Positions 36,951 through 60,024 of a DNA stretch of 64,000 nt are shown here, one piece after another; within the stretch, counting starts at the first letter, position 1; each line of letters opens with the position of its first letter. Below the pieces are notes generated by a model. It saw nothing but the letters and a program-made list of their open reading frames with translations. It was not told the origin of the DNA and made no database searches. The position numbers and the translations under genes are program-made. Origin of the DNA: Desulfofundulus salinus (GTDB lineage: Bacteria; Bacillota; Desulfotomaculia; Desulfotomaculales; Desulfovirgulaceae). The stretch covers positions 457,195 through 521,194 of the forward strand of contig NZ_RBWE01000001.1 in the NCBI RefSeq assembly GCF_003627965.1, given 5' to 3'.

Positions 36951-37035
36951 CAAATTATCTGTGCCTTTACTGGTATAGGGTAGTGGGGGCAAATAAACGC
37001 CCTTTTTCTTTGCAGCCAGGGGAGTGGACAGAACC

Positions 37036-37782
37036 ATGCGCTTTTCAAGGTACGATATGATCTTCATCTTTGCCCTGCTGGTTGCTGCTGGAGCCGGCCT
37101 GGCTACGCTGTATAACCTGGTGATTATCGAAATGCTGGCGTCCGGCAACACCCGGCATGTTAGCGGGGCCATACATTATGCTTTGTGGCTTAACCTGGCC
37201 TTTTGGGGATTGTCGGTGGTGCTTGGCGCCGCCGGCCTGCGGTTTTATTTGCGGCAAAGACAACCCCAGGATGACACCGTGCATAATGATGTGGGAGAAC
37301 GCTTCACCGAAAGGGTTGCACCGCCCTGTACCGAACAAATGACGGAGCTGGTCCGGACGGTAAAGGAGGCTTTAGAGGTTATCCAACCACTGATACTGCA
37401 GCTTATCGCCGGGCAGGAAACGGCCGCGGGTACAACCACTGCCGGTCCTCCGGTTTCACCGCCAAAGGAGCAGTTAAGGTCCTCCGAGGGCAGGACGGCA
37501 GAGCCGTTGGGTGAAGAAGACTGCGAGCAGGAATTCTGGCCGGACTTCCCCAAAGGGCTCAATAAGGTGACTTTAAAGCAGGTTTTATCATATCTGGAGG
37601 AACATAACGAAACGGGGGTTTCTTCAGAGGAAATAGCCACAGGGGTGGGTATTTCCCGGGTTACCGTAAGGCGGTACATGGATTACCTGGAGCAGATTGG
37701 TTATGTTAAGGTGGAGTTGAGATATGGCACGGTGGGGAGACCTTTAAAAATATACACCCTTGCTAATTTGTTTAGTTCCTGA
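37036..37782 (+). CDS. Membrane-anchored one-component regulator with CitT/DcuR-type winged helix
   Basis: 248 residues. Two N-terminal membrane helices (about residues 8-32 and 47-70) separated by a short loop are followed by a polar Pro/Thr/Glu-rich linker and a DNA-binding domain at about 178-246. That domain contains GISRVTVRRYMDYLEQIG and YGTVGRPLKIY, the pattern of the DcuR/CitB response-regulator output domain. No receiver or kinase domain exists. ATG 37036 is 8 bp after GGGGAG; GTG 37024 lies at the site itself. The domain is about 58% identical by eye to that of the Cache-HAMP regulator near 49.8 kb. It lies directly upstream of hydCBA, so control of hydrogenase is plausible. Confidence 0.8.
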   Translation: MRFSRYDMIFIFALLVAAGAGLATLYNLVIIEMLASGNTRHVSGAIHYALWLNLAFWGLSVVLGAAGLRFYLRQRQPQDDTVHNDVGERFTERVAPPCTEQMTELVRTVKEALEVIQPLILQLIAGQETAAGTTTAGPPVSPPKEQLRSSEGRTAEPLGEEDCEQEFWPDFPKGLNKVTLKQVLSYLEEHNETGVSSEEIATGVGISRVTVRRYMDYLEQIGYVKVELRYGTVGRPLKIYTLANLFSS

Positions 37783-46079: not shown

Positions 46080-47102
46080 GTGAGGGTTGAAATTCTTCAG
46101 CGCAAAGCTTTTTTTCACGGTGGAATTCAAGGGCTTATTTTAACCATAGTAGTGGGGATTCTTGCTCATAATATTGCCACACTACCTTTTTTTTCTGTAT
46201 CCGGACCTATGGTTATTGCAATTTTAATTGGTATCTGCTGGCGGGGCGTTATGGGGATACATAAACAAGCTAATGTAGGAATAAATTTCGCCAGTAAGAG
46301 ACTTTTGCGTTATGGTATCATTTTGATGGGTGTTCGACTCAACCTCGATGCCATAGTTGCTACAGGTCCCAAAATTATTCTTCTCGATGCTGCGGTTATT
46401 TTATCGGCCATTGTTATTATTTGTTTTCTGGGACGATTATTTGCGGTAGAGGAACGAGTGGCTTTACTAACAGCGGTAGGAACAGGTGTTTGTGGAGCTG
46501 CTGCTGTAGCTGCCGTTGCGCCAACGGTTAAGGCCAGCCAGGATGAGACAGTCGTATCAGTGGCAAGTGTTGCCGTTTTAGGGACCATTGGTAGTGTTTT
46601 ATATCTCTTATTACAGCCGTTTTGGGGTCTTGATGCAAGTTCTTACGGCGTTTTTGCAGGAGCAACCTTACATGAAATAGCACACGTGATAGCTGCAACC
46701 CAGTCGGCAGGAAGCTCTGCGGCTAACATGGCCCTTTTAACCAAACTCGGCCGGGTGGCCCTGCTGGTTCCCGTTATCCTGGGAATCAGCCTCTGGTTTA
46801 ATTTGAAAAATGGGGAGAAAGAACAAATTAGCGGGTGGCGTAGCTTATCATTTCCCTGGTTTCTTCTGGGTTTTCTCGGGATGAGTTGCCTTAGAACCAC
46901 TGGTTTAATAGCAGATGAGCTTGCTTCTTTAATCCTGCAAATTAGCAATCTTTTTTTGATTATGGCCATGGCGGGTATGGGACTTAACGTTGATATTGTA
47001 ATGTTCAAACGTATGGGCTTAAAATCATTTTTCGTCGGTTTGCTCGGATCCCTGGTCATTTCGATTGCTGGATTTGCTGCTGTTCGCATTGTTCATTTTT
47101 AG
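46080..47102 (+). CDS. yeiH: YeiH/UPF0324-family membrane protein (putative sulfate exporter family)
   Basis: 340 residues with about ten hydrophobic helices and the family's conserved GATLHEIAHVIAATQSAG and TAVGTGVCGAAAVAAVAP motifs. In databases the family is named putative sulfate exporter; transport is not proven. GTG 46080 follows AAGGGGAG. Codon use is clearly more AT-rich than in the flanking hydrogenase and formate genes. Next come usp and a LysR gene, the latter resembling the yeiH-yeiE pairing of E. coli. Confidence 0.85.
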   Translation: MRVEILQRKAFFHGGIQGLILTIVVGILAHNIATLPFFSVSGPMVIAILIGICWRGVMGIHKQANVGINFASKRLLRYGIILMGVRLNLDAIVATGPKIILLDAAVILSAIVIICFLGRLFAVEERVALLTAVGTGVCGAAAVAAVAPTVKASQDETVVSVASVAVLGTIGSVLYLLLQPFWGLDASSYGVFAGATLHEIAHVIAATQSAGSSAANMALLTKLGRVALLVPVILGISLWFNLKNGEKEQISGWRSLSFPWFLLGFLGMSCLRTTGLIADELASLILQISNLFLIMAMAGMGLNVDIVMFKRMGLKSFFVGLLGSLVISIAGFAAVRIVHF

Positions 47103-47119
47103 GCTTTGGAGGTGTTAAA

Positions 47120-47614
47120 ATGGTTAGCGGGCTGGCCGAGCAACTTTTAAGAGGATATCAACTGGAAGTAGCAAGTATTTCCATTAACAGGATTATTCTA
47201 GCGGTGGATGGTTCGGCTCCGGCTGTTGAAGCAACTAAATATGCCGTAGTTTTAGCCAGGTGTCACGGTGCAAAAATAACTGCAGTGTTTGTAGACTCCG
47301 ACGGTGAAGAGGCCGTTGTTCCAGAAGATCAGTGGGAATACCTGGCAAAAAAGAGTAAAAGGATCCGTTATGGGCTGGCTGGCCTGGAGCTTGTTCAGAG
47401 GTACGGTAAGGCATACTGTTTAGATGTTAAGCAGCTTCTTTTAAGGGGCAATCCTGTTAAACAGATTGTAGATACTGCTGAAAAAGAAGAGGCCGACTTA
47501 ATTGTTGTGGGGGATACCGGCTTAACGGGAATTAAAAGAATAGCATTGGGGAGCGTTGCAGAAGCAGTGGTTGAAGCATCAGAAATCCCCGTTCTGGTTG
47601 TTAAGGGTAGGTAG
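47120..47614 (+). CDS. Universal stress protein (UspA family)
   Basis: 164 residues. About 20 extra N-terminal residues precede the Usp fold (RIILAVDGSAPAVEATKYAV). The ATP-binding signature G-x2-G-x9-GS is present as GDTGLTGIKRIALGS near residues 132-146, so it is likely the nucleotide-binding kind. ATG 47120 after TTGGAGG. Part of the AT-richer cassette. Confidence 0.88.
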   Translation: MVSGLAEQLLRGYQLEVASISINRIILAVDGSAPAVEATKYAVVLARCHGAKITAVFVDSDGEEAVVPEDQWEYLAKKSKRIRYGLAGLELVQRYGKAYCLDVKQLLLRGNPVKQIVDTAEKEEADLIVVGDTGLTGIKRIALGSVAEAVVEASEIPVLVVKGR

Positions 47615-47622
47615 CGATCGCC

Positions 47623-48522
47623 ATGAACTTTCACCAGTTGTATATTTTTAAGATAGTAGCTGATAAAAAGAGCTTTTCAAAGGCTGCACAGGTTCTGTTT
47701 ATTTCCCAGCCGGCCATCAGTATGCAAATTAAATCCCTGGAAGATCACTTTGGCATACGGTTATTTGAGCGCAACACCCACCAGGTGAATCTAACGGAGG
47801 CCGGCCATATCCTGTATAATTATGTAGAGAAGATCTTGTCCCTGGTAGATGAAGCAGAGAAAGATATCTCTGCCCTTACAGGATGTATGAGGGGTACACT
47901 GTCCATTGGAGCAAGTTTTACTCTGGGTGAGTATGTAATTCCCCAGGTAATTGGCCGTTTTAAGAATCAGTATCCACAGGTAAAAGTGTTTCTACAGGTA
48001 ACCAATACAGAGCAAATTGCGAAACGGGTATCAAAAAACATCCTGGATTTAGGACTGGTAGAGAGTCATGTAGACGATCAGGAACTGGCTGCCAGCCCTT
48101 TTTTGCAGGACGAGTTGATAGTGGTACTTCCGGCCGGGCACCCTTTAGCTGGAAAAAAGTCTATCTCGCTGGATGAATTCGTTGCGCTTCCCCTGGTGTT
48201 GCGGGAACAGGGGTCGGGTACAAGGAAAGTTACCGAAGAGCGGTTGAGGGAAGCGGGGGTAGAATTGTCTGCATTAAACGTTGTTATGGAACTGGGGAGT
48301 ACCGAAGCAGTAAAAAAGGCTGTAGAAGCTGGTTTTGGAGCCAGTATCATTTCCATGTGGGCGGTTCAAAAGGAATTAAAACTATGTACACTTGTACCTG
48401 TGAGGATTAAGGAATTTTCTTTGCTTCGAAACTTTTATTTAATTTTTAAAAAAAACAGGTCCCACACATCTGTGGTAAAAGAGTTCGTTTCTTTTATAGA
48501 ACAAGGTGCTTTTCTGTATTAG
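47623..48522 (+). CDS. LysR-family transcriptional regulator (YeiE/CysL-like)
   Basis: 299 residues: N-terminal winged helix-turn-helix (FKIVADKKSFSKAAQVLFISQPAISMQ) and a periplasmic-binding-like effector domain. It is co-directional with yeiH and usp; in E. coli the LysR gene yeiE lies next to yeiH, so regulation of yeiH is a reasonable inference. Effector unknown. ATG 47623 is 9 bp after the usp stop. Confidence 0.88.
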   Translation: MNFHQLYIFKIVADKKSFSKAAQVLFISQPAISMQIKSLEDHFGIRLFERNTHQVNLTEAGHILYNYVEKILSLVDEAEKDISALTGCMRGTLSIGASFTLGEYVIPQVIGRFKNQYPQVKVFLQVTNTEQIAKRVSKNILDLGLVESHVDDQELAASPFLQDELIVVLPAGHPLAGKKSISLDEFVALPLVLREQGSGTRKVTEERLREAGVELSALNVVMELGSTEAVKKAVEAGFGASIISMWAVQKELKLCTLVPVRIKEFSLLRNFYLIFKKNRSHTSVVKEFVSFIEQGAFLY

Positions 48523-48765: not shown

Positions 48766-49878
48766 ATGCACTCCCTCAAACAGCAAATTACCTTACTCGT
48801 GGTTGGGGCAATTATTATCATGACCGCGGGTTTCATGCTGGCGGTTTTCTTTCAAACCCGGGCTACCGCCCTGATGGCCGCAGAAACCAAGGCCATGAGT
48901 GACCTGGCCACGGTGGAAGCACTGATCAATCTGCAGTATCCCGGCCCCTGGAGAGTTAAAGGCGGGGTGTTGTATAAAGGTGAAGTTAAAATTAACGATA
49001 ACTTCGCCATTGTCGATTACGTGGAAAAGTTGACCGGTGACTCATGTACCATCTTTTTAAATGATGTACGCGTGACCACCACCGTGCGGGATGACCAGGG
49101 CAACAGGGCCGTTGGTACCCATGCTTCTAGAGAAGTAGTCCAAAAAGTGCTCGGGGCCAAACAGGAATATGTCGGTGAAGCCTACGTGGTCGGCAGGAAG
49201 TATCAGACCGCATACAAACCGATCACGGACGAAAGCGGAGAGGTAATTGGTATGCTCTACGTAGGAGCACCCCGGACCTTTTACGATACCATACTGTACG
49301 GTTCACTTAAAGTTATGGGTCTGGTGGCAGTGGTATTGACTCTGGTAATAGGCCTGGGGACCTGGGTCTTTACCCAGCGCACCATTATCGATCCCCTGCA
49401 GGAGATCATTGCAGGTACAAGACAGGTGGCCCTGGGCAGCCCGGGGCAACCTGTGGCCGTACACAGCAATAACGAGATTGGTGAACTGGCCCGGGCCTTT
49501 AACCAGATGGTGGAGGGAATGCAGGCCCTGGCCAACGAGCTGGGTAAAGTGGCCGGCTTTGCCCAGAACAACGGGCAGCTGCCCCTTGCTAAGACTGTTG
49601 CTTCCCAGGTTAATCAGCAAGAAATCAAAATTGTACCAAAACTACAGGAGGAGCTCCCCAAGGGTTTAAACAGGGTTACGCTGGAACAGGTGGTCAAGTT
49701 CCTGGAGCGGAATAAAAACAGCGGTGTATCTTCCGATGAGGTGGCCGAAGGAGTGAATCTTTCCAAGGTTACCGTGCGGCGCTATCTTGATTATTTGGAA
49801 CGGTGCGGTCTTCTGGACATTGATCAGAAGTATGGTTCAGTGGGAAGGCCTATGAAAATTTACAGGCTGAAAACATAG
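48766..49878 (+). CDS. Transmembrane Cache-HAMP regulator with CitT/DcuR-type winged helix
   Basis: 370 residues. TM helix 1 (about 10-32) and TM helix 2 (about 180-203) enclose a single-Cache extracytoplasmic sensor domain (about 35-165, with a GMLYVGAP ending like chemoreceptor and DcuS/CitA sensors). A HAMP domain follows (about 204-256), then a helical linker and a winged helix (about 298-368) with NLSKVTVRRYLDYLERCG and YGSVGRPMKIYRL. No kinase or receiver: a one-component membrane regulator. ATG 48766 is preferred, since the longer frame starts inside the hairpin-T-run. It lies upstream of the formate operon, whose control it may exert. Confidence 0.85.
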   Translation: MHSLKQQITLLVVGAIIIMTAGFMLAVFFQTRATALMAAETKAMSDLATVEALINLQYPGPWRVKGGVLYKGEVKINDNFAIVDYVEKLTGDSCTIFLNDVRVTTTVRDDQGNRAVGTHASREVVQKVLGAKQEYVGEAYVVGRKYQTAYKPITDESGEVIGMLYVGAPRTFYDTILYGSLKVMGLVAVVLTLVIGLGTWVFTQRTIIDPLQEIIAGTRQVALGSPGQPVAVHSNNEIGELARAFNQMVEGMQALANELGKVAGFAQNNGQLPLAKTVASQVNQQEIKIVPKLQEELPKGLNRVTLEQVVKFLERNKNSGVSSDEVAEGVNLSKVTVRRYLDYLERCGLLDIDQKYGSVGRPMKIYRLKT

Positions 49879-49942: not shown

Positions 49943-50072
49943 TTTGGCGGATTTTTGTGCGTTTATGCGTTTATTATTTTTTATTTATTTTATTTTTTAT
50001 TTATCTTTTATCTAATATTTTTAAGTTTTTGTTCACAGGTTCTGATTTTAAATTAAACATTTTTAACAAAAA
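49943..50072. other. T-rich tract upstream of the formate operon promoter
   Basis: About 110 bp of extremely AT-rich, mainly TTTATT sequence. No gene seen. It may be an UP-element-like region or binding area for the upstream regulator. Confidence 0.5.
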
Positions 50073-50102
50073 TTGCCCCGGGTTTAAAGGCCTTAATATA
50101 AT
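50073..50102 (+). promoter_or_regulatory. Promoter candidate for the formate operon
   Basis: TTGCCC (50073-50078), 18 bp, TATAAT (50097-50102). The transcribed leader to the channel gene is about 130 bp. Confidence 0.6.
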
Positions 50103-50236: not shown

Positions 50237-51070
50237 ATGGCTGTTCTAAAACCGGCGGAAATTTTGGAATCCTGCGGCAATATGGGAGCCATGCGAGCCA
50301 GGACGGGGATTCCGAAGACTTTAATGCTTGCTTTTCTGGCCGGGGCATACATCGCTTTTGGCGCTTTGTTAATGGTAACCGTGGTGGCGGGCCTCCCCCA
50401 GGAAAGTTTTGGCACCCTAACAAAGTTCATTGGCGGTGCGCTCTTTCCCATCGGTTTGATTATGGTTATACTTGGTGGTGCGGACCTTTTTACCGGGGAT
50501 GTGATGTACAATACCGTTGGTCTGTTCCAGGGGAAAATGGGCGCCGGTGAACTTTTCAGAAACTGGTTTTTTGCTTATGCAGGGAACTTCCTGGGGGCGA
50601 TATTTGTGGTTTACCTGGCCATGTCTTCCGGGTTTCTCTCCGCCGAGCCCTGGCTTGGCTGGATCCAGAAAATTGCCGTAACGAAAACCTCTCTTACTTT
50701 TGAACAGGCTTTCTGGCGTGGTGTTGGCTGCAACTGGCTGGTTTGCATGGCCTGTTGGCTGGCCATGGCTTCGGATCATGCGGCTGGGAAAGTTTTGGGT
50801 ATCTGGGTGCCCATCATGGCTTTTGTCACCATGGGGTTCGAACACAACATTGCCAACATGTTTTTCATCCCTGCCGGGATCTGGGTCGGCGCACCAGTAA
50901 CCTGGATCCAGTTCTGGATCAACAATCAGTTGCCCGTTACCCTTGGCAATATCGTGGGCGGCGGGCTTTTTGTGGGGGTGATTTACGCTTTTTGTTATGG
51001 CAACCTTTCCTGGACGGTTCTTAAAAGTCGCATTTCCCTCAGAGTCAACGATAACACTGTAAAAAGATAA
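50237..51070 (+). CDS. Formate/nitrite transporter family channel (FocA/FdhC-like)
   Basis: 277 residues with six hydrophobic segments and the pentameric-channel motifs LGGADLFTGDVMYNTVGLFQG and GFEHNIANMFFIP. Moves formate (or nitrite). Its place before the formate dehydrogenase genes supports formate. ATG 50237 after AAGGAGG. Confidence 0.92.
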   Translation: MAVLKPAEILESCGNMGAMRARTGIPKTLMLAFLAGAYIAFGALLMVTVVAGLPQESFGTLTKFIGGALFPIGLIMVILGGADLFTGDVMYNTVGLFQGKMGAGELFRNWFFAYAGNFLGAIFVVYLAMSSGFLSAEPWLGWIQKIAVTKTSLTFEQAFWRGVGCNWLVCMACWLAMASDHAAGKVLGIWVPIMAFVTMGFEHNIANMFFIPAGIWVGAPVTWIQFWINNQLPVTLGNIVGGGLFVGVIYAFCYGNLSWTVLKSRISLRVNDNTVKR

Positions 51071-51914: not shown

Positions 51915-52400
51915 GTGAGCTGTCAATGTGGATGTCAGGATGAAGCGGCCAAAAGAGAAGCCCTGGAGAAGGTTTTTGAGCAGTACCGGGGCACTAAAGG
52001 GGCGCTCATCCCGCTGTTGCAGGAAGCTCAGGAGATTTACGGGTACCTGCCCGGGGAAGTGATGCAAAGGATAGCCGCCGAGCTGAAAGTTCCCTTCAGC
52101 AAGGTCTTCGGGGTGGCCACCTTTTACGCCCAGTTTCACTTAAAACCCCGGGGGCGGAATATTATCAGAATCTGCCAGGGTACGGCCTGCCACGTGCGGG
52201 GTGCGGCCCGGGTATTTGAATCGGTATCGGAGAAGCTTGGCGTGGGCAGAAACGAGACCACCGCCGACCTGCGCTACACCCTGGAGACGGTGGCCTGCCT
52301 GGGTGCCTGCGGCCTGGCGCCGGTGATGATGGTTAACGACGATACCCACGGCCGTCTGACCCCGGAGCGGGCGGCTGAAGTTCTCGAGCAGTACGAATAG
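51915..52400 (+). CDS. NuoE-like [2Fe-2S] subunit of NAD-linked formate dehydrogenase
   Basis: 161 residues, paralogous to HydC. Ligands CQGTAC and CLGAC. The N-terminal segment MSCQCGCQDE contains three additional Cys not in HydC. GTG start after GGAGGAGGG. Forms a 19-bp-spaced pair with the NuoF-like gene. Confidence 0.92.
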   Translation: MSCQCGCQDEAAKREALEKVFEQYRGTKGALIPLLQEAQEIYGYLPGEVMQRIAAELKVPFSKVFGVATFYAQFHLKPRGRNIIRICQGTACHVRGAARVFESVSEKLGVGRNETTADLRYTLETVACLGACGLAPVMMVNDDTHGRLTPERAAEVLEQYE

Positions 52401-52419
52401 AAAGGGGGCGGCGAAAGAA

Positions 52420-54372
52420 ATGAAGTCATTAATGGATAAATGCTGTGAAAAGTGTTTCCATTCCCCGGCCAGCCCCTGCAAAGACTATATCAAATGCCGC
52501 CGGCAGGGGCCCCTGTGCCACGAGGATGAAAGCTGCCGGGCCAAATACAGGGCATTTCTGGAGGATATCCACCTGCCTGAAGACAGCCCCAGGCGGCAGA
52601 TTCTCATTTGCGCCGGTACCGGCTGCACCTCCTCCGGTTCCCGCAAACTGGTGGATGCCCTGGTGGAAGAGCTGCAAAAGCAGGGTTTGCGGGATAAAGT
52701 ATCGGTCAAGATCACCGGCTGCCACGGTTTTTGCGAACAGGGTCCCTTAATGATCGTGGAACCCCAGAAGGTTTTCTACACCCGGGTGCAGGTAGAGGAT
52801 ATTCATGAGATTGTGGCCAGCCATCTGGTGGGAGGCCAGGTGGTTGACCGCCTGCTCTACGTAGATCCCGCTACCGGTGAAAAATCCCTCACCTACGAGA
52901 CCGTTCCCTTCTACGCCAAGCAAAAGCGTCTGGTGCTTGCCAACTGCGGGCACATCAATCCCGAAGAAATTGCCGACTATGTGGCCAATGACGGTTATCT
53001 GGCCCTGACCAGGGCACTGTTTGAAATGACCCCCGAGCAGGTAATTGAAGAAGTCAAGATCTCCGGCCTGCGGGGCAGGGGCGGCGCCGGTTTTCCCACC
53101 GGGATGAAGTGGAGCTTTGTCCGTGCCGCGGAAGGGGACAAGAAGTATGTAGTCTGCAACGCCGACGAAGGGGACCCGGGAGCCTTTATGGACCGCAGCG
53201 TCCTGGAGGGCGACCCCCACGCGGTGCTGGAAGGGATGCTGATCTGCGGCTATGCCGTTGGCGCCGATGAAGGCTACATTTACGTGCGGGCCGAATATCC
53301 CCTGGCCATTCACCGGCTCAAGATAGCCATTGCCCAGGCCGAGGAATGCGGCCTTTTAGGGGACAACATCCTCAATTCCGGGTTCAACTTCCGCATCAAG
53401 ATCAAGGCCGGGGCAGGGGCCTTTGTTTGCGGCGAAGAGACCGCCCTTTTGACTTCCATTGAAGGCAACCGGGGCATGCCGCGGCCGAGACCGCCTTTCC
53501 CGGCGCAAAAAGGTTTATGGGGCAAGCCCACCAATATCAACAACGTAGAAACCTTTGCCAACGTGCCCCTGATCATCCGCAACGGCGGCGCCTGGTATGC
53601 CGCCATGGGCACGGAAAAGAGCAAGGGCACCAAGATTTTCGCCCTGACCGGCAAGGTGAATAACACCGGCCTGGTGGAAGTGCCCATGGGCATTACCATG
53701 CGGGAGATCATCTTTGGCGTGGGCGGCGGCATCCGGGACGGCAAGAAGTTCAAGGCCGTGCAGATCGGCGGACCCTCCGGCGGCTGCCTGCCCGAGGAAC
53801 AGCTGGACCTGCCCATCGACTATGAATCCCTCACCTCTGCAGGGGCCATCATGGGTTCCGGCGGCCTGGTGGTCATGGATGAAACCACCTGCATGGTGGA
53901 TGTGGCCCGGTTCTTCTTAAACTTCACCCAGGCCGAATCCTGCGGCAAATGCACCCCCTGCCGGGAAGGCACCAAGCGCATGCTGGAAATCCTCACCCGC
54001 ATCTGCGAAGGCCAGGGTAAGGAGGAGGACATCGAGACCCTGGAGCGGCTGGCCCGGGTGGTTAAAAACACGGCCCTGTGCGGCCTGGGACAGACCTGCC
54101 CCAACCCGATCCTGTCCACATTGCGCTACTTCCGGGACGAATACGAAGCCCATATCAGGGGTAAACGCTGCCCGGCTCGCGTCTGCCAGGCGCTTTTGGT
54201 GTACACCATTAATGCCGAAAAGTGCACCGGCTGCGGCAGCTGTGCCCGCGCCTGTCCGGCCGGAGCCATCAGCGGCGAAAAGAAACAGCCCCACGTCATC
54301 GATATTTCCCGGTGCATCAAGTGCGGCAACTGCATGCAGAAGTGCAAGTTCGGCGCTGTGGAAAAGGCGTAA
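52420..54372 (+). CDS. NuoF-like flavin subunit of NAD-linked formate dehydrogenase
   Basis: 650 residues, paralogous to HydB. N-terminal Cys-rich extension (CCEKCFHSPASPC...CRRQGPLC) absent from HydB, then CAGTGC/CHGFC [2Fe-2S], the NADH/FMN region GLRGRGGAGFPTGMKW, CGKCTPC, and two C-terminal ferredoxin clusters (CTGCGSCARACP and CIKCGNCMQKCK). It would deliver electrons between FdhA and NAD(P) or ferredoxin. Confidence 0.93.
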   Translation: MKSLMDKCCEKCFHSPASPCKDYIKCRRQGPLCHEDESCRAKYRAFLEDIHLPEDSPRRQILICAGTGCTSSGSRKLVDALVEELQKQGLRDKVSVKITGCHGFCEQGPLMIVEPQKVFYTRVQVEDIHEIVASHLVGGQVVDRLLYVDPATGEKSLTYETVPFYAKQKRLVLANCGHINPEEIADYVANDGYLALTRALFEMTPEQVIEEVKISGLRGRGGAGFPTGMKWSFVRAAEGDKKYVVCNADEGDPGAFMDRSVLEGDPHAVLEGMLICGYAVGADEGYIYVRAEYPLAIHRLKIAIAQAEECGLLGDNILNSGFNFRIKIKAGAGAFVCGEETALLTSIEGNRGMPRPRPPFPAQKGLWGKPTNINNVETFANVPLIIRNGGAWYAAMGTEKSKGTKIFALTGKVNNTGLVEVPMGITMREIIFGVGGGIRDGKKFKAVQIGGPSGGCLPEEQLDLPIDYESLTSAGAIMGSGGLVVMDETTCMVDVARFFLNFTQAESCGKCTPCREGTKRMLEILTRICEGQGKEEDIETLERLARVVKNTALCGLGQTCPNPILSTLRYFRDEYEAHIRGKRCPARVCQALLVYTINAEKCTGCGSCARACPAGAISGEKKQPHVIDISRCIKCGNCMQKCKFGAVEKA

Positions 54373-54432: not shown

Positions 54433-55365
54433 GTGGCCAATGTCACTTTAACCATAGACGGGAAAAAGGTGACCGTACCGGCCGGCACCACCGTGCTGGA
54501 TGCGGCCCGGTCGGCGGGAATTTTCATCCCCACCCTGTGCCACGACCCACTTCTTCCTGGTTGGGGAGCCTGCCGGCTGTGCGTGGTGGAAATACCGGGT
54601 ATGCGCAACCTGCCGGCCTCCTGCGTGACTACCGTGGCCGAGGGGATGGTGGTCCACACCGCCTCGGAAGCGGTAATTGAGGCGCGGCGTACCATTATCG
54701 ATTTGCTGCTGGCCAACCACCCCCAGGACTGCCTGACCTGCGAAAAAAACGGCGACTGCCGTTTGCAGGATTATGCTTTCATGTACGGGGTTCGACAGAC
54801 CAGCTTTCACGGCGAGAGGAAAAATTACCCCCTGGATGATTCCAACCCCTACATCATCAGGGATCAAAATAAGTGCATCCTGTGCGGCAAGTGCGTGCGC
54901 ACCTGCCAGGCCGTGCCCGGGCGCAGCGTGATTGACTTCGGCTACCGGGGCTTTAACACCAGGGTGGTTACGGCCATGGACGTACCCCTGGGCGAGTCGG
55001 ATTGTGTTTATTGCGCCCGCTGCGTGGCCGTCTGCCCGGTAGGGGCGTTGACCTACAAGCCCATGGCCGGGAAAGGGCGCACCTGGGAAATGCAAAAGGA
55101 ACCCGTCACCTGCACTTTTTGTGAAAGCGGCTGTACCTTTGAGCTGAACATCAAAGACGGGAAAGTGATCGGCATTACAGCAAAAGAACCTGGCCCCGGC
55201 CGGCCCCTGTGCCTCAAAGGCCGCCTGGGCCTGGAGCTGCTCTACGTGGAAGAACCAATGACCCCCATGCTGAAAAAGGACGGCCGGTTTGTCCCTGTTT
55301 CCTGGGCTGAAGCCCTGGGATTGGAGGGCGTCGTGGCCAGGATGAAGGAAGTGGAAGGTAAGTAG
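54433..55365 (+). CDS. Short NuoG-like iron-sulfur protein, paralogue of the FdhA amino terminus
   Basis: 310 residues: [2Fe-2S] domain (CHDPLLPGWGACRLC), His-Cys [4Fe-4S] (HPQDCLTCEKNGDC), two ferredoxin clusters ([11 protein letters not shown] and CVYCARCVAVC), then the Mo/W-bis-MGD [4Fe-4S] motif CTFCESGC. It ends a short way into the domain, so there is no catalytic site and no Sec/Cys. It matches the first ~330 residues of the next gene, FdhA, closely, and the first ~100 bp are nearly identical in DNA. GTG start 54433. The clean ending suggests a functional electron-transfer subunit rather than a broken copy. Confidence 0.85.
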   Translation: MANVTLTIDGKKVTVPAGTTVLDAARSAGIFIPTLCHDPLLPGWGACRLCVVEIPGMRNLPASCVTTVAEGMVVHTASEAVIEARRTIIDLLLANHPQDCLTCEKNGDCRLQDYAFMYGVRQTSFHGERKNYPLDDSNPYIIRDQNKCILCGKCVRTCQAVPGRSVIDFGYRGFNTRVVTAMDVPLGESDCVYCARCVAVCPVGALTYKPMAGKGRTWEMQKEPVTCTFCESGCTFELNIKDGKVIGITAKEPGPGRPLCLKGRLGLELLYVEEPMTPMLKKDGRFVPVSWAEALGLEGVVARMKEVEGK

Positions 55366-55464
55366 ACACCCATGGCGCTTTCGGCGCCACCACAGAGGTA
55401 CGGCGCTGTTCTGAGTGAGGATGATAACAGTGATAAGAAATCATGCCGAAAGGGGGTACCTAAA

Positions 55465-58152
55465 TTGGCGGAAGTCACCTTAACCATAGACGGGAAGCAG
55501 GTGACCGTACCGGCCGGCACCACCGTGCTGGATGCGGCCCGGTCCGCGGGAATTTTCATTCCCACCCTGTGCCACGATCCGGAACTCACCCCGTGGGGCG
55601 GCTGCCGCCTGTGCGTGGTGGAAATAGAAGGCATGCGCAACCTGCCGGCTTCCTGCGTCACCACTGTCACCAGCGGCATGGTGGTGCATACCGCCTCGCA
55701 GGCGGTAGTGGAAGCCCGGAAAACCATCATTGAGTTGCTTTTGGCCAACCACCCCATGGACTGCCTGACCTGCGGGCGAAACGGCGACTGCCGCCTGCAG
55801 GATTACGCCTACATGTACGGCGTCCGGGAGGCCGGTTTTGTTGGGGAGCGCCACAGTTACCCCATTGAAGATGATAACCCCTTCATAGTGCGGGACTTGA
55901 ATAAATGTATCTTGTGCGGCAAGTGCGTGCGGGCCTGCGCCGAAATCCAGGGCAAAAACGTAGTGGATTTTGCCTACCGGGGTTTCAACACCAGGGTTAC
56001 CCCGGCCATGGACAGTACCCTGGCCGGTTCCGACTGCGTTTTTTGCGGCAACTGTGTGGCCGTCTGCCCGGTGGGGGCCCTGCAGGAAAAGGGCCTGCGT
56101 GCGGCAGCCCGCACCTGGGAAGTCAAGAAGGTGCGGACCACCTGCCCCTACTGCGGCACCGGTTGCACCTTTGATCTCAATGTAAAGGACGGCCGGGTGG
56201 TGGGGGTAACATCCTGTGACGGTGAAGTCAACGGGCGGGCCCTGTGCGTGAAAGGCCGTTTTGGTTACGGCTTTATTCACCACCCCGACCGCCTCACCAG
56301 GCCCCTCATCAAGAGAAACGGCGTTTTTGAGGAGGCCACCTGGGAAGAAGCCATCAATTTGGTGGCCGAAAGGCTGGGGGCAATTAAAAAAGAATACGGT
56401 TCCGGCGCACTGGGAGTCCTGAGCTCGGCCCGGTGCACCAACGAAGAAAACTACTTGATGAGCAAGTTCACCAGGGCCGTACTGGGGACCAACAACATCG
56501 ACCACTGTGCCCGTCTCTGACACGCGCCTACTGTCGCCGGTCTGGCGGCAGCCTTTGGCAGTGGTGCCATGACCAACCCCATCGATGATATTGGGGGAGC
56601 CGACTTTATCCTGGCCATAGGGACCAACACCACCGAGTCGCACCCAATTATCGGCCTTCAGGTGAAAAAGGCCGTGCGCAACGGCGCCACCCTGGTGGTG
56701 GTGGACCCCCGCAGGACAGAGGTGGCCGGTCTGGCCCACCATCACCTGCAGTTGAAGTCGGGCACGGACATCGCCCTTTTAAACGCCCTGGCCAATGTGA
56801 TTATTTCCGAGGGCCTGGTAAACAAGGAATTTGTGGACACCCGTACCGAGGGGTTTGAAGCCCTGAAAGAGGCGGTGGCCAAATACACCCCCGAATATGT
56901 GGCGGAAATTACCGGTATCAGCCCCGATGTGATCCGGGAAGTGGCCCGGGGTTACGCCACGGCCAGAAACGCCACCATTCTTTATACCATGGGCCTCACC
57001 CAGCACATCTGCGGCACCGACAACGTCCTTGCCGTGGCCAACCTGGCCATGCTCTGCGGGCACATCGGCAAGCCCCACAGCGGCGTGAATCCCCTGCGGG
57101 GGCAGAACAACGTCCAGGGAGCCTGCGACATAGGCGCCCTGCCCAACGTCCTCACAGGTTACCAGAGCGTTACCCTGGAGGAAGTGCGGGCCAGGTTTGC
57201 CGCGGCCTGGGGGGTAGACGAGCTGCCGGCCACGCCCGGGCTTACCGTGGGCGAAATGATCGAAGCCGCCGCCCGGGGAGAAATCAAGGGGATGTACATC
57301 ATGGGCGAGAACCCCGTGCTCTCCGACCCCGATGCGGACCACGTAGTTCACGCTTTAGAAAAGCTGGACTTTTTGGTGGTGCAGGACATCTTCCTTACCG
57401 AGACTGCCCGCCTGGCCGATGTGGTTTTGCCCGCAGCCAGTTTTGCGGAGAAGGACGGCACCTTTACCAACACCGAGCGGCGGGTGCAGCGGGTGCGCAA
57501 GGCCATTGAGCCCGTAGGGGAAGCCAAACCCGACTGGCAGATCATCTGCCTGGTGGCTACGGCCATGGGTTATCCCATGCAGTACGGTTCGCCGGCGGAA
57601 ATCATGGAGGAGATTGCCCGCCTCACCCCCTCCTACGGCGGCATTTCCTACCAGCGCCTGGAGAGCGGCAGCCTGGTCTGGCCCTGTCCCGCCCCCGATC
57701 ACCCGGGAACGCCCATCCTGCACGCGGGCAAGTTTGCCCGGGGGTTGGGCAAGTTCCACCCGGTAGAATACGTTCCCCCGGCCGAGCTGCCGGACGAAGA
57801 ATATCCGCTCATCCTGAATACGGGGCGGCGGCACTTCCACTACCATACCGGGACCATGACCCTGCGTACCGGGGCCCTGGAGGAGTACTACGGCCGGGAG
57901 CACCTGGAGATCAATCCCGCCGACGCCCGGACCCTGGGCATTGCCGACGGCGACCGGGTGCGGGTTATCTCCCGCCGGGGACAGGTGGAAGTAACCGCCC
58001 GGGTTGTGGATACCGTGCCGCCCGGGGTGGTCTTTACCTCCTTCCACTTCCCGGAGGTGGCCATCAACAAGCTGACCAACACGGCCCGGGACCCGGTGGC
58101 CAGAATACCGGAGTTAAAAGTCTGCGCCGTGCGGGTGGAGAAGATCGCCTGA
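55465..58152 (+). CDS. fdhA: Selenocysteine formate dehydrogenase catalytic subunit, TGA read through
   Basis: 895 residues if the in-frame TGA at 56518-56520 is read as Sec (residue 352). Before it: [2Fe-2S] domain ([15 protein letters not shown]), His-Cys [4Fe-4S], two ferredoxin clusters ([11 protein letters not shown] and [11 protein letters not shown]), then the bis-MGD domain CPYCGTGC. The residues before the TGA (NNIDHCARL) and after ([16 protein letters not shown]) are the formate dehydrogenase active-site signature. The catalytic domain and molybdopterin-dinucleotide C-terminal domain run to 58152. TTG 55465 follows AAAGGGGG and mirrors the start of its short paralogue; an open frame exists back to 55372. 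Likely complexed with the NuoE/NuoF/NuoG-like subunits. Confidence 0.93.
56518..56551 (+). promoter_or_regulatory. Sec codon and bacterial SECIS hairpin in fdhA
   Basis: TGA 56518-56520 is followed after 10 nt by CTGTCGCC (56531-56538) and GGCGGCAG (56544-56551), an 8-bp stem with one G-U pair and loop GGTCT. The apical GGU and its distance from the UGA match the bacterial SECIS recognised by SelB. Confidence 0.9.
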
Positions 58153-58323: not shown

Positions 58324-60024
58324 GTGGGGTTGTTGCTGGTTGATGCCGGGGGAAGGGTGGAGTTTTTGAACCGGGTCGCCGAAGACCTCCTGGGTGTAGA
58401 AAGAAGTGCGGCTGCGGGGAGGCAACTTGGCGACGTATTACCTGCCGTCCTGGTGGAGCAGTTATGGCCGCAGGACGGTTCGCCTTTAGGCAGGAAGGTG
58501 GAAATAAACGGCCGGAAGGTGGCCGTGCAGGTCAACCCGCTGGTGGGGGAAGAGGGCGCCGGCGGGACGATGCTGGTTTTACAGGACATTTCCCTGTGCG
58601 AATCCTTGAGGGAAGCCAAGGAAGAGCTGGAAGCCATCTTTAACTCTTCTTACGACGAAATTTACGTTGTCGACGGCGAGGGCTACACCCGCAGGGTCAA
58701 CAAAATTGGAGAAAGCTACTACGGGGTGGAAGTGGAAAAGATAATAGGCAAACATTACAGCGAAATGGAGGAGGAGGGTTATTTCAACCCATCCGTTTCG
58801 CGCCGGGTTTTTGAGGAAAGACGGCGGGTGACCATGGTCCAGCATACGAAGACGGGCAAGACTCTCATCGTTACAGGAAATCCGGTCTTTGACGATTCGG
58901 GCAGGATCACCCGTATAGTGGTCAACTCCCGGGATGTTTCCGAGCTGATCAATTTAAAGCAGCGCCTGGAAGACACCGAACAGCTGGTGGACAACTACCG
59001 CCGGCTGGTGATGTACCTGCGGCAGGAAAAGCTGGAAAACACAGAAATTATTGCGGCCAGCCCTCAAATGAAACAGGTCCTGGACCTGGTGGACCGGGTG
59101 GCCCAGGTGGATTCCACCATCCTGATTACCGGCGAATCCGGTGTGGGCAAGGGCGTTATTGCTTCCCGCATTCACAAGTTGAGCAGGCGGCATAAAGGTC
59201 CCTTTATCACCATCAACTGTGGAGCCATACCCGAGAACCTGCTGGAATCGGAGCTGTTCGGCTATGAGCCCGGGGCCTTCACCGGGGCCAGGCGTGAGGG
59301 GAAAAGGGGCCTAATTGAAATGGGTGACGGGGGAACCGTTTTTCTGGATGAGGTGGCGGATCTGCCTTTGAACCTGCAGGTCAAGCTGTTGCAGGTAATC
59401 CAGGAAAAAAAGTTAATGCGTGTCGGGGGAAGCCAGCAAATCGCGGTGAATGTGAGATTTATCGCCGCCACCAACCGCGATATTCAGAAGATGGTCAGGG
59501 AAGGATTGTTCCGGGAGGATCTTTACTACCGGTTGAATGTAGTCCCGGTCACCATTCCTCCCCTGCGGTATCGCAAAGAAGATATTGTGCCCTTGATTGA
59601 GCATTTCGTCAATAAGTTTAATCTGAAATATGACATGAATAAACATTTTTCACCGGAAGTCCTGGACGTACTGGTGAAATACCACTGGCCCGGTAATATA
59701 AGGGAAGTGGAAAACCTGGTGGAGCGGTTGATGGTTACCACCGACAGCAACCTTATTGAGACGGTGCATATTCCCGATTATATTATCAACTCCAGCGGCG
59801 AGCTTCCCGGCAGGGTATATGTGCTGGGGATATGCCCCTTGAAACAGGCCGTCGACGAGGTGGAAAGGCAGTTAATTATGCTGGCGTCACAGCGTTGCAA
59901 AACCACCTACGAAATGGCCAGCGCCCTGCAGGTCAACCAGTCAACCATTGTCAGGAAGATCCAGAAGTACCGCGTGTACCCCACGGGGAGCAAACAAAAG
60001 AAGCTCATGAAAAACACAAAATAA
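58324..60024 (+). CDS. Sigma54-dependent transcriptional activator with two PAS domains
   Basis: About 566 residues from GTG 58324. Two PAS-like domains (about 1-95 and 100-210), then a sigma54 AAA+ domain: Walker A TGESGVGKG (about 269-277), the sigma54-contact loop PGAFTGA (about 316-322), Walker B VFLDEV. A short helix-turn-helix ends the protein (TYEMASALQVNQSTIVRKIQKY). The first PAS seems to begin before GTG 58324: the frame continues upstream, and GGGGAGG (58274-58280) lies 7 bp before CTG 58288, so a CTG (or ATT 58282) start with 12 more residues is possible. It probably controls the following glutamate dehydrogenase and permease genes. Confidence 0.92.
   Translation: MGLLLVDAGGRVEFLNRVAEDLLGVERSAAAGRQLGDVLPAVLVEQLWPQDGSPLGRKVEINGRKVAVQVNPLVGEEGAGGTMLVLQDISLCESLREAKEELEAIFNSSYDEIYVVDGEGYTRRVNKIGESYYGVEVEKIIGKHYSEMEEEGYFNPSVSRRVFEERRRVTMVQHTKTGKTLIVTGNPVFDDSGRITRIVVNSRDVSELINLKQRLEDTEQLVDNYRRLVMYLRQEKLENTEIIAASPQMKQVLDLVDRVAQVDSTILITGESGVGKGVIASRIHKLSRRHKGPFITINCGAIPENLLESELFGYEPGAFTGARREGKRGLIEMGDGGTVFLDEVADLPLNLQVKLLQVIQEKKLMRVGGSQQIAVNVRFIAATNRDIQKMVREGLFREDLYYRLNVVPVTIPPLRYRKEDIVPLIEHFVNKFNLKYDMNKHFSPEVLDVLVKYHWPGNIREVENLVERLMVTTDSNLIETVHIPDYIINSSGELPGRVYVLGICPLKQAVDEVERQLIMLASQRCKTTYEMASALQVNQSTIVRKIQKYRVYPTGSKQKKLMKNTK

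Follow-up and report, generated by a model that had tools for sequence, protein, structure and literature searches.

One gene of the stretch of DNA analysed here, a window of 64,000 nucleotides, poses the question of how an extracytoplasmic sensor can work when it is joined in one chain to a DNA-binding domain, what such a sensor perceives and which genes it controls. The gene is an open reading frame of 370 aa on the forward strand (48766-49878, stop included), with the ATG at 48766 as its start; the orthologue in Desulfofundulus australicus (L041) begins at the same residue and the longer frame from GTG 48694 is unnecessary. A first-pass annotation had read it as a Cache-HAMP sensor fused to a DNA-binding domain, and this was borne out by the Pfam and NCBIfam profiles and by AlphaFold2 models, but the end that it gave, 49400, falls within the HAMP domain. 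As judged from Pfam, NCBIfam and hydropathy, the chain consists, in this order and on the forward strand throughout, of transmembrane helix 1 (residues 10-28, 48793-48849, by hydropathy; part of a helix spanning 4-57 in the AlphaFold2 models), an extracytoplasmic sCache_3_3 sensor of the formate type (residues 29-182, 48850-49311), transmembrane helix 2 (residues 183-201, 49312-49368, by hydropathy), a HAMP domain (residues 204-253, 49375-49524; Pfam 8e-11), a flexible linker (residues 259-296, 49540-49653) and a C-terminal winged helix of the DcuR/CitB type (residues 297-368, 49654-49869). The sCache_3_3 profile (PF17202) matched residues 75-176 with an E value of 2.1e-37 and 128 bits against a cutoff of 28.8. 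In the winged helix HTH_11 matched residues 306-353 above its own cutoff and the C-terminal profile of the response regulator DcuR (PRK10430, NCBIfam) matched residues 294-369 (E 1.3e-15), while the match of the 370-aa protein to the 'DpiA-like' HTH_64 was just under its cutoff.

Profiles, hydropathy and AlphaFold2 models alike place sensor, membrane helix and DNA-binding domain in a single chain without phosphorelay domains. No HisKA or HATPase_c was present among the Pfam matches of the 370-aa protein listed up to E 10, and the chain ends after the winged helix. Nor did the Pfam matches listed include Response_reg, the receiver domain with its phospho-aspartate, the N-terminal part being TM-Cache-TM-HAMP, or MCPsignal, the chemoreceptor signalling domain, only the linker and winged helix being left after HAMP. 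The hidden kinase domain that the first-pass annotation had asked about was thus not found by Pfam or NCBIfam, and no other output domain was found either; its phrase for the protein, a short-circuit of a two-component pathway, can fairly be applied to a sensor and a DNA-binding domain in one chain without a kinase.

What the sensor perceives is suggested by its fold. In structure comparison the Cache domain matched 8py0 best (Z 21.2, 2.1 Å over 149 residues) and 8py1 next (Z 19.2), both of them chemoreceptor sensor domains described as in complex with formate, while citrate and fumarate sensors trailed these formate-bound structures with a Z of 13.7 at most. In the formate chemoreceptor PacF the residues R142, T145 and T158 are reported to affect formate binding (PMC12501870), and the spacing of this triad, R, T (+3) and T (+16), is identical in R102, T105 and T118 of our protein (49069-49119 on the forward strand), which we predict to be the formate contacts. 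The triad is present in the aligned sequences of both 8py0 and 8py1, and a human-gut sCache_3_3 domain containing the R/T/T residues binds formate (PMC12415202). It is kept in 26 of the 30 aligned fusions and occurs also in every other Cache relative that was checked, chemoreceptors included; since it is common to the whole Cache family, it was inherited by the fusions and is a mark of the family, not an independent signal for this protein. The ligand of the Cache domain is very probably formate, which had been one of three guesses in the annotation and is the one to which the structure, the contact residues and the neighbouring genes all point.

The other end of the protein appears to be a functional DNA-binding half. 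Two AlphaFold2 models, one built with 9 sequences (mean pLDDT 75) and one with 31 (mean pLDDT 77), contained the long TM1-Cache helix, the Cache fold and the HAMP helices; the stretch at about 259-294 was disordered, and from residue 297 a winged helix was modelled well. Residues 297-368 compared to known winged-helix folds with a Z of about 11; Foldseek matches to CodY and SpoVT were discarded for their rmsd of 7-36 Å. Across the 30 fusions K299, G300, L301, T305, V335, T336, R339, Y340, G357, G360, R361 and P362 show no or almost no variation, and the residues of the recognition helix and wing rank among the most conserved of the protein. These near-invariant residues, together with a family operator motif at the downstream promoters (see below), argue against the degenerate winged helix that the annotation had also considered. 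Its statement that HAMP leads by a helix to the winged helix was no more than half correct. The linker between the second HAMP helix and the winged helix is 41 residues long in our protein, as against about 33-78 in relatives, is poorly conserved in the alignment of the 30 fusions and had a pLDDT below 50 in both models, the 31-sequence model leaving it disordered like the other; being disordered and variable in length, it does not join HAMP and winged helix by one continuous helix. As modelled, such a flexible linker argues against rigid helix-to-helix transmission from HAMP to the winged helix.

Full-length fusions of this kind number about 30 and are spread across several families of Bacillota. 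Whole-genome searches found them in 11 genomes of the source organism's class (113 genomes and the source genome searched) and in 13 further genomes of a 398-genome sample of the phylum; these searches replaced a scan of named genomes with near-exact peptide patterns, which had yielded 8 loci only. Named carriers include Desulfofundulus thermobenzoicus, D. australicus, D. thermosubterraneus and Desulforamulus putei. The copy in genome G005 runs off a contig end. At L094 (7232-8379, genome G082) a fusion beside a formate dehydrogenase operon is split into two overlapping reading frames, as are the neighbouring formate dehydrogenase genes, which is a matter of frameshifts or poor assembly. In a tree of the Cache domains a branch with support of 96/94 separates the fusions from 25 Cache proteins of other kinds, the sole exception being L013, a truncated fusion at a contig end.

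We then asked which genes lie beside the fusions, whose neighbourhoods are related by descent; gene identities were confirmed by profile for example loci. Genes for formate transport, formate dehydrogenase or hydrogenase adjoin 25 of the 30 aligned fusions, in several families: focA-type transporters in seven (with a transposase-like frame intervening in L109), an operon for a periplasmic formate dehydrogenase with Tat signal and selenocysteine in 11, nuoEF-hydA in two and hydrogenase genes in five (periplasmic [FeFe] in four, NiFe in one). In our window the next gene is a formate/nitrite transporter of the focA type (50237-51070, forward; Pfam PF01226 7e-81, fnt TIGR00790 above cutoff), which is the predicted target, and focA likewise follows the fusion in L040, L041, L014, L101 and L112. 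Within the source organism's family the presence of a close focA coincides with that of the fusion: all four genomes with the fusion have one (4/4), and the five without it have none (0/5). Further downstream on the forward strand lie NuoE- and NuoF-like subunits (51915-54372), NuoF being assigned by NCBIfam and the NuoE-like frame at 51915-52400 by its translation and its order beside nuoF, which are the probable electron partner of a formate dehydrogenase. Its alpha subunit is encoded at 55372-58152, also forward, with an in-frame TGA read as selenocysteine (TIGR01591, 908.8 bits against a cutoff of 666 with TGA=U); the TGA sits between two open reading frames and read-through yields the full match to TIGR01591.

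Several other features of these loci may be recorded. The reading frame at 54433-55365, upstream of the alpha subunit, looks like a second, truncated copy of its N-terminal part. Directly after the formate dehydrogenase genes the forward strand encodes what its translation suggests is a PAS-containing activator of the sigma-54 type (58324-60024), and the cluster may therefore have a second, cytoplasmic regulator. Genes for a YeiH-like protein, a Usp and a selenium-associated LysR regulator (46080-48522) lie between the hydrogenase cluster and the fusion gene in the window and in D. thermosubterraneus (L042) and are absent from the same place in D. australicus (L041), a difference due to a small insertion or loss. 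In D. thermobenzoicus a long CRISPR-like array, whose repeat reads FQSPFRRVSGCN when translated, is located just upstream of the fusion together with cas-like genes (L040 4768-7827). The window also encodes, at 37024-37782 on the forward strand and just upstream of a nuoEF/[FeFe]-hydrogenase cluster, a second membrane-anchored regulator, whose DcuR/DpiA-type winged helix (HTH_64 29.6 bits, above cutoff) stands behind two transmembrane helices with no Cache and no HAMP; regulators of this type were present in eight of the nine genomes of the source organism's family that were examined, and their winged helices form one clade in a tree of few columns.

A de novo motif search was performed on 19 of the intergenic regions between the fusions and the next operons. 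It returned the A/T-rich motif TTTcTTTATTTACtTTATtT, with a clear site in 17 of the 19 regions and a weak or absent one in L104 and L110; TTATTTAC occurred forward in 10 of the 19 and reverse in none, as compared to 0.6 in shuffled sets. MaeR, a regulator of the CitB family, binds tandem TTATT(A/T)AA repeats, the first two of which are 1 bp apart (PMC5457438). As predicted sites, TTATTWA occurred 31 times forward and five times reverse in the regions downstream of the fusions, against 9.5 in shuffles, its start-to-start distances peaked at 9 bp (8 against 0.3 expected), and the proximal repeat stood exactly 6 bp before the TTG of a -35 in 10 cases where 1.5 were expected. In the window the motif search marked a candidate operator at 49980-50004 on the forward strand, which resembles the MaeR operator TTATTWAA and consists of A/T-rich direct repeats TTATTTAT at 49981 and 49997; these, 16 bp apart, are less regular than those of the family. 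By pattern search the sole perfect TTTATTTAYTTTATTT in the 2.89-Mb source genome is the one at 49980, upstream of focA. A predicted focA promoter, TTGCCC and TATAAT with 18 bp between them (50073-50102, forward), is conserved in a three-species alignment; the promoter-proximal half-site is 5 bp from its -35, not 6, and TTGCCC is a poor -35 box. Upstream of the fusion gene itself the motif signal was weak (4/60 and 14/60 shuffles reached the same score), upstream of the periplasmic [FeFe] hydrogenase genes of L093 and L097 it was not significant, and no clear motif was seen upstream of the bifurcating hydrogenase operon (1/60 shuffles in the window, 9/60 in L041), where the TTATTTA core is absent.

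From these sequence features we regard it as highly likely that the protein is a membrane-tethered one-component regulator, most likely an activator, which responds to formate outside the cytoplasmic membrane and acts on the neighbouring operon. Formate would bind the Cache domain outside the cell through R102, T105 and T118, and the signal would cross the membrane through TM2 and HAMP, which would change state. The paired, tethered winged helices on their flexible linkers would then engage the direct repeats (TTATTTA, 9-bp step) beside the -35 and, once bound, would recruit polymerase. In the source genome this would switch on focA, and with it formate uptake; in relatives the operons switched on would be those of formate dehydrogenase or hydrogenase. 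The coupling of HAMP to the winged helix is the least certain part of this mechanism. We infer activation rather than repression because of the fixed spacing between repeat and -35 and the sense of the neighbouring genes.

The same tethered protein could instead repress, with formate causing it to leave the promoter, as the direct repeats adjoin the -35 region and a protein bound there could equally stand in the way of polymerase. We hold this to be quite unlikely, for the proximal repeat abuts the -35 and does not overlap it, the fixed 6 bp in ten cases is an activator-like geometry, and the CitB-family relative MaeR is required for the use of its substrate (PMC5457438). Cleavage of the linker by regulated proteolysis, freeing the winged helix from the membrane to act as a free protein, is an unlikely course of events to which we nevertheless allow some weight, the linker being long, disordered and poorly conserved and a tethered regulator having to reach its own DNA; however, we noticed no conserved cleavage motif in the linker, whose length varies widely, and the target sites adjoin the regulator gene, which suits a tethered protein.

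As to the ligand, in seven of the 25 neighbourhoods the fusion adjoins a hydrogenase cluster and neither formate dehydrogenase nor focA, and citrate and C4-acid sensors share the fold at a Z of about 13, so that the protein might read, instead of formate, a different small acid or some other signal linked to hydrogen metabolism. Against this, the two formate-bound structures score well above all others, the formate triad is intact, and focA and formate dehydrogenase are the commonest neighbours, which makes a ligand other than formate very unlikely. That the winged helix contacts only protein, or is decaying without binding DNA, appears improbable in the extreme: the Pfam HTH scores are indeed modest, with HTH_64 below cutoff, but few residues of the protein are better conserved than those of the recognition helix and wing, and the operator motif of the family is found again at target promoters, those of L114 and L115, held out from motif building, included.

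These two loci belong to a small branch of the family which bears on the question of the ligand. Four fusions (L099 5916-7040; L114 2546-3670 and 6104-7249; L115 7048-8175) lie beside genes for a UGSC selenoprotein and a MauE/DoxX-like protein, and in the alignment all four carry a cysteine in place of R102, at the contact position, and a second cysteine about 10 residues later, whereas R/T/T is intact in each of the 25 fusions that have formate or hydrogen genes next to them. Simple counts of neighbour type against the R to C change give p 2e-4, a value that is overstated, as it ignores kinship: the three UGSC-adjacent fusions included in the Cache tree form one clade, and there was thus probably a single joint change of ligand and neighbours. 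This cysteine branch has likely switched to another signal, perhaps a thiol, a metal or a redox cue. The operator motif is retained in the copies of L114 (twice) and L115, none of which was used to build it. We see an even chance that the whole is a family of one-protein switches which, anchored at one spot in the membrane, relay the extracellular formate signal directly to the promoter of the adjoining operon, and of which one branch would have exchanged formate for a cysteine-dependent signal and, with the same operator, moved to selenoprotein (UGSC) genes.

With the sCache_3_3 formate chemoreceptor sensors (8py0, 8py1, PacF) the protein shares the fold and the R/T/T residues at identical spacing, but their output is chemotaxis and its own is a DNA-binding domain. 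With the DcuR/DpiA (CitB-family) response regulators, MaeR included, it shares the C-terminal winged helix and, as predicted here, direct-repeat operators of the TTATTWAA type, though it has no receiver or phosphorylation and is fused to a sensor and anchored in the membrane. DcuS-DcuR and CitA-CitB likewise have an extracytoplasmic Cache domain that senses small carboxylates and control genes of uptake and use; they are two proteins with phosphotransfer, whereas the fusion is one protein without a kinase. CadC and ToxR also combine a sensor, a membrane helix and a DNA-binding domain within a single polypeptide, with an N-terminal winged helix of the OmpR type and a single transmembrane helix; the fusion has its winged helix, of the DcuR type, at the C-terminus behind two transmembrane helices and HAMP, and so lies outside that family as strictly defined. 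FhlA is a formate-responsive activator of formate metabolism, cytoplasmic and sigma-54 dependent; its domains are unrelated, and it reads formate inside the cell, which the fusion would read outside.

A survey of 2016 counted 14 of 276 sCache_3_3 proteins as transcription factors, and its Table 1 gives the count only, with no ligand, target or operator (PMC4822843); that count probably includes the Cache-HAMP-winged-helix architecture. No functional study of such a fusion was found in the literature searched, the scope of which left out most subscription journals. Membrane one-component regulators are already known as a kind. The parts of the fusion are known; the function and mechanism predicted for it are new and well supported.

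Formate is a main currency exchanged between anaerobes. If our reading is true, external formate is read and transcription acted upon without phosphotransfer, a job that is usually split between a sensor kinase and a DNA-binding protein. For one small gene the ligand can be named, three residues can be tested, and both a target gene and an operator are predicted, so that experiments can address directly how HAMP can drive a DNA-binding domain in place of a kinase. The protein would then be, for anaerobes, a compact switch for external formate.
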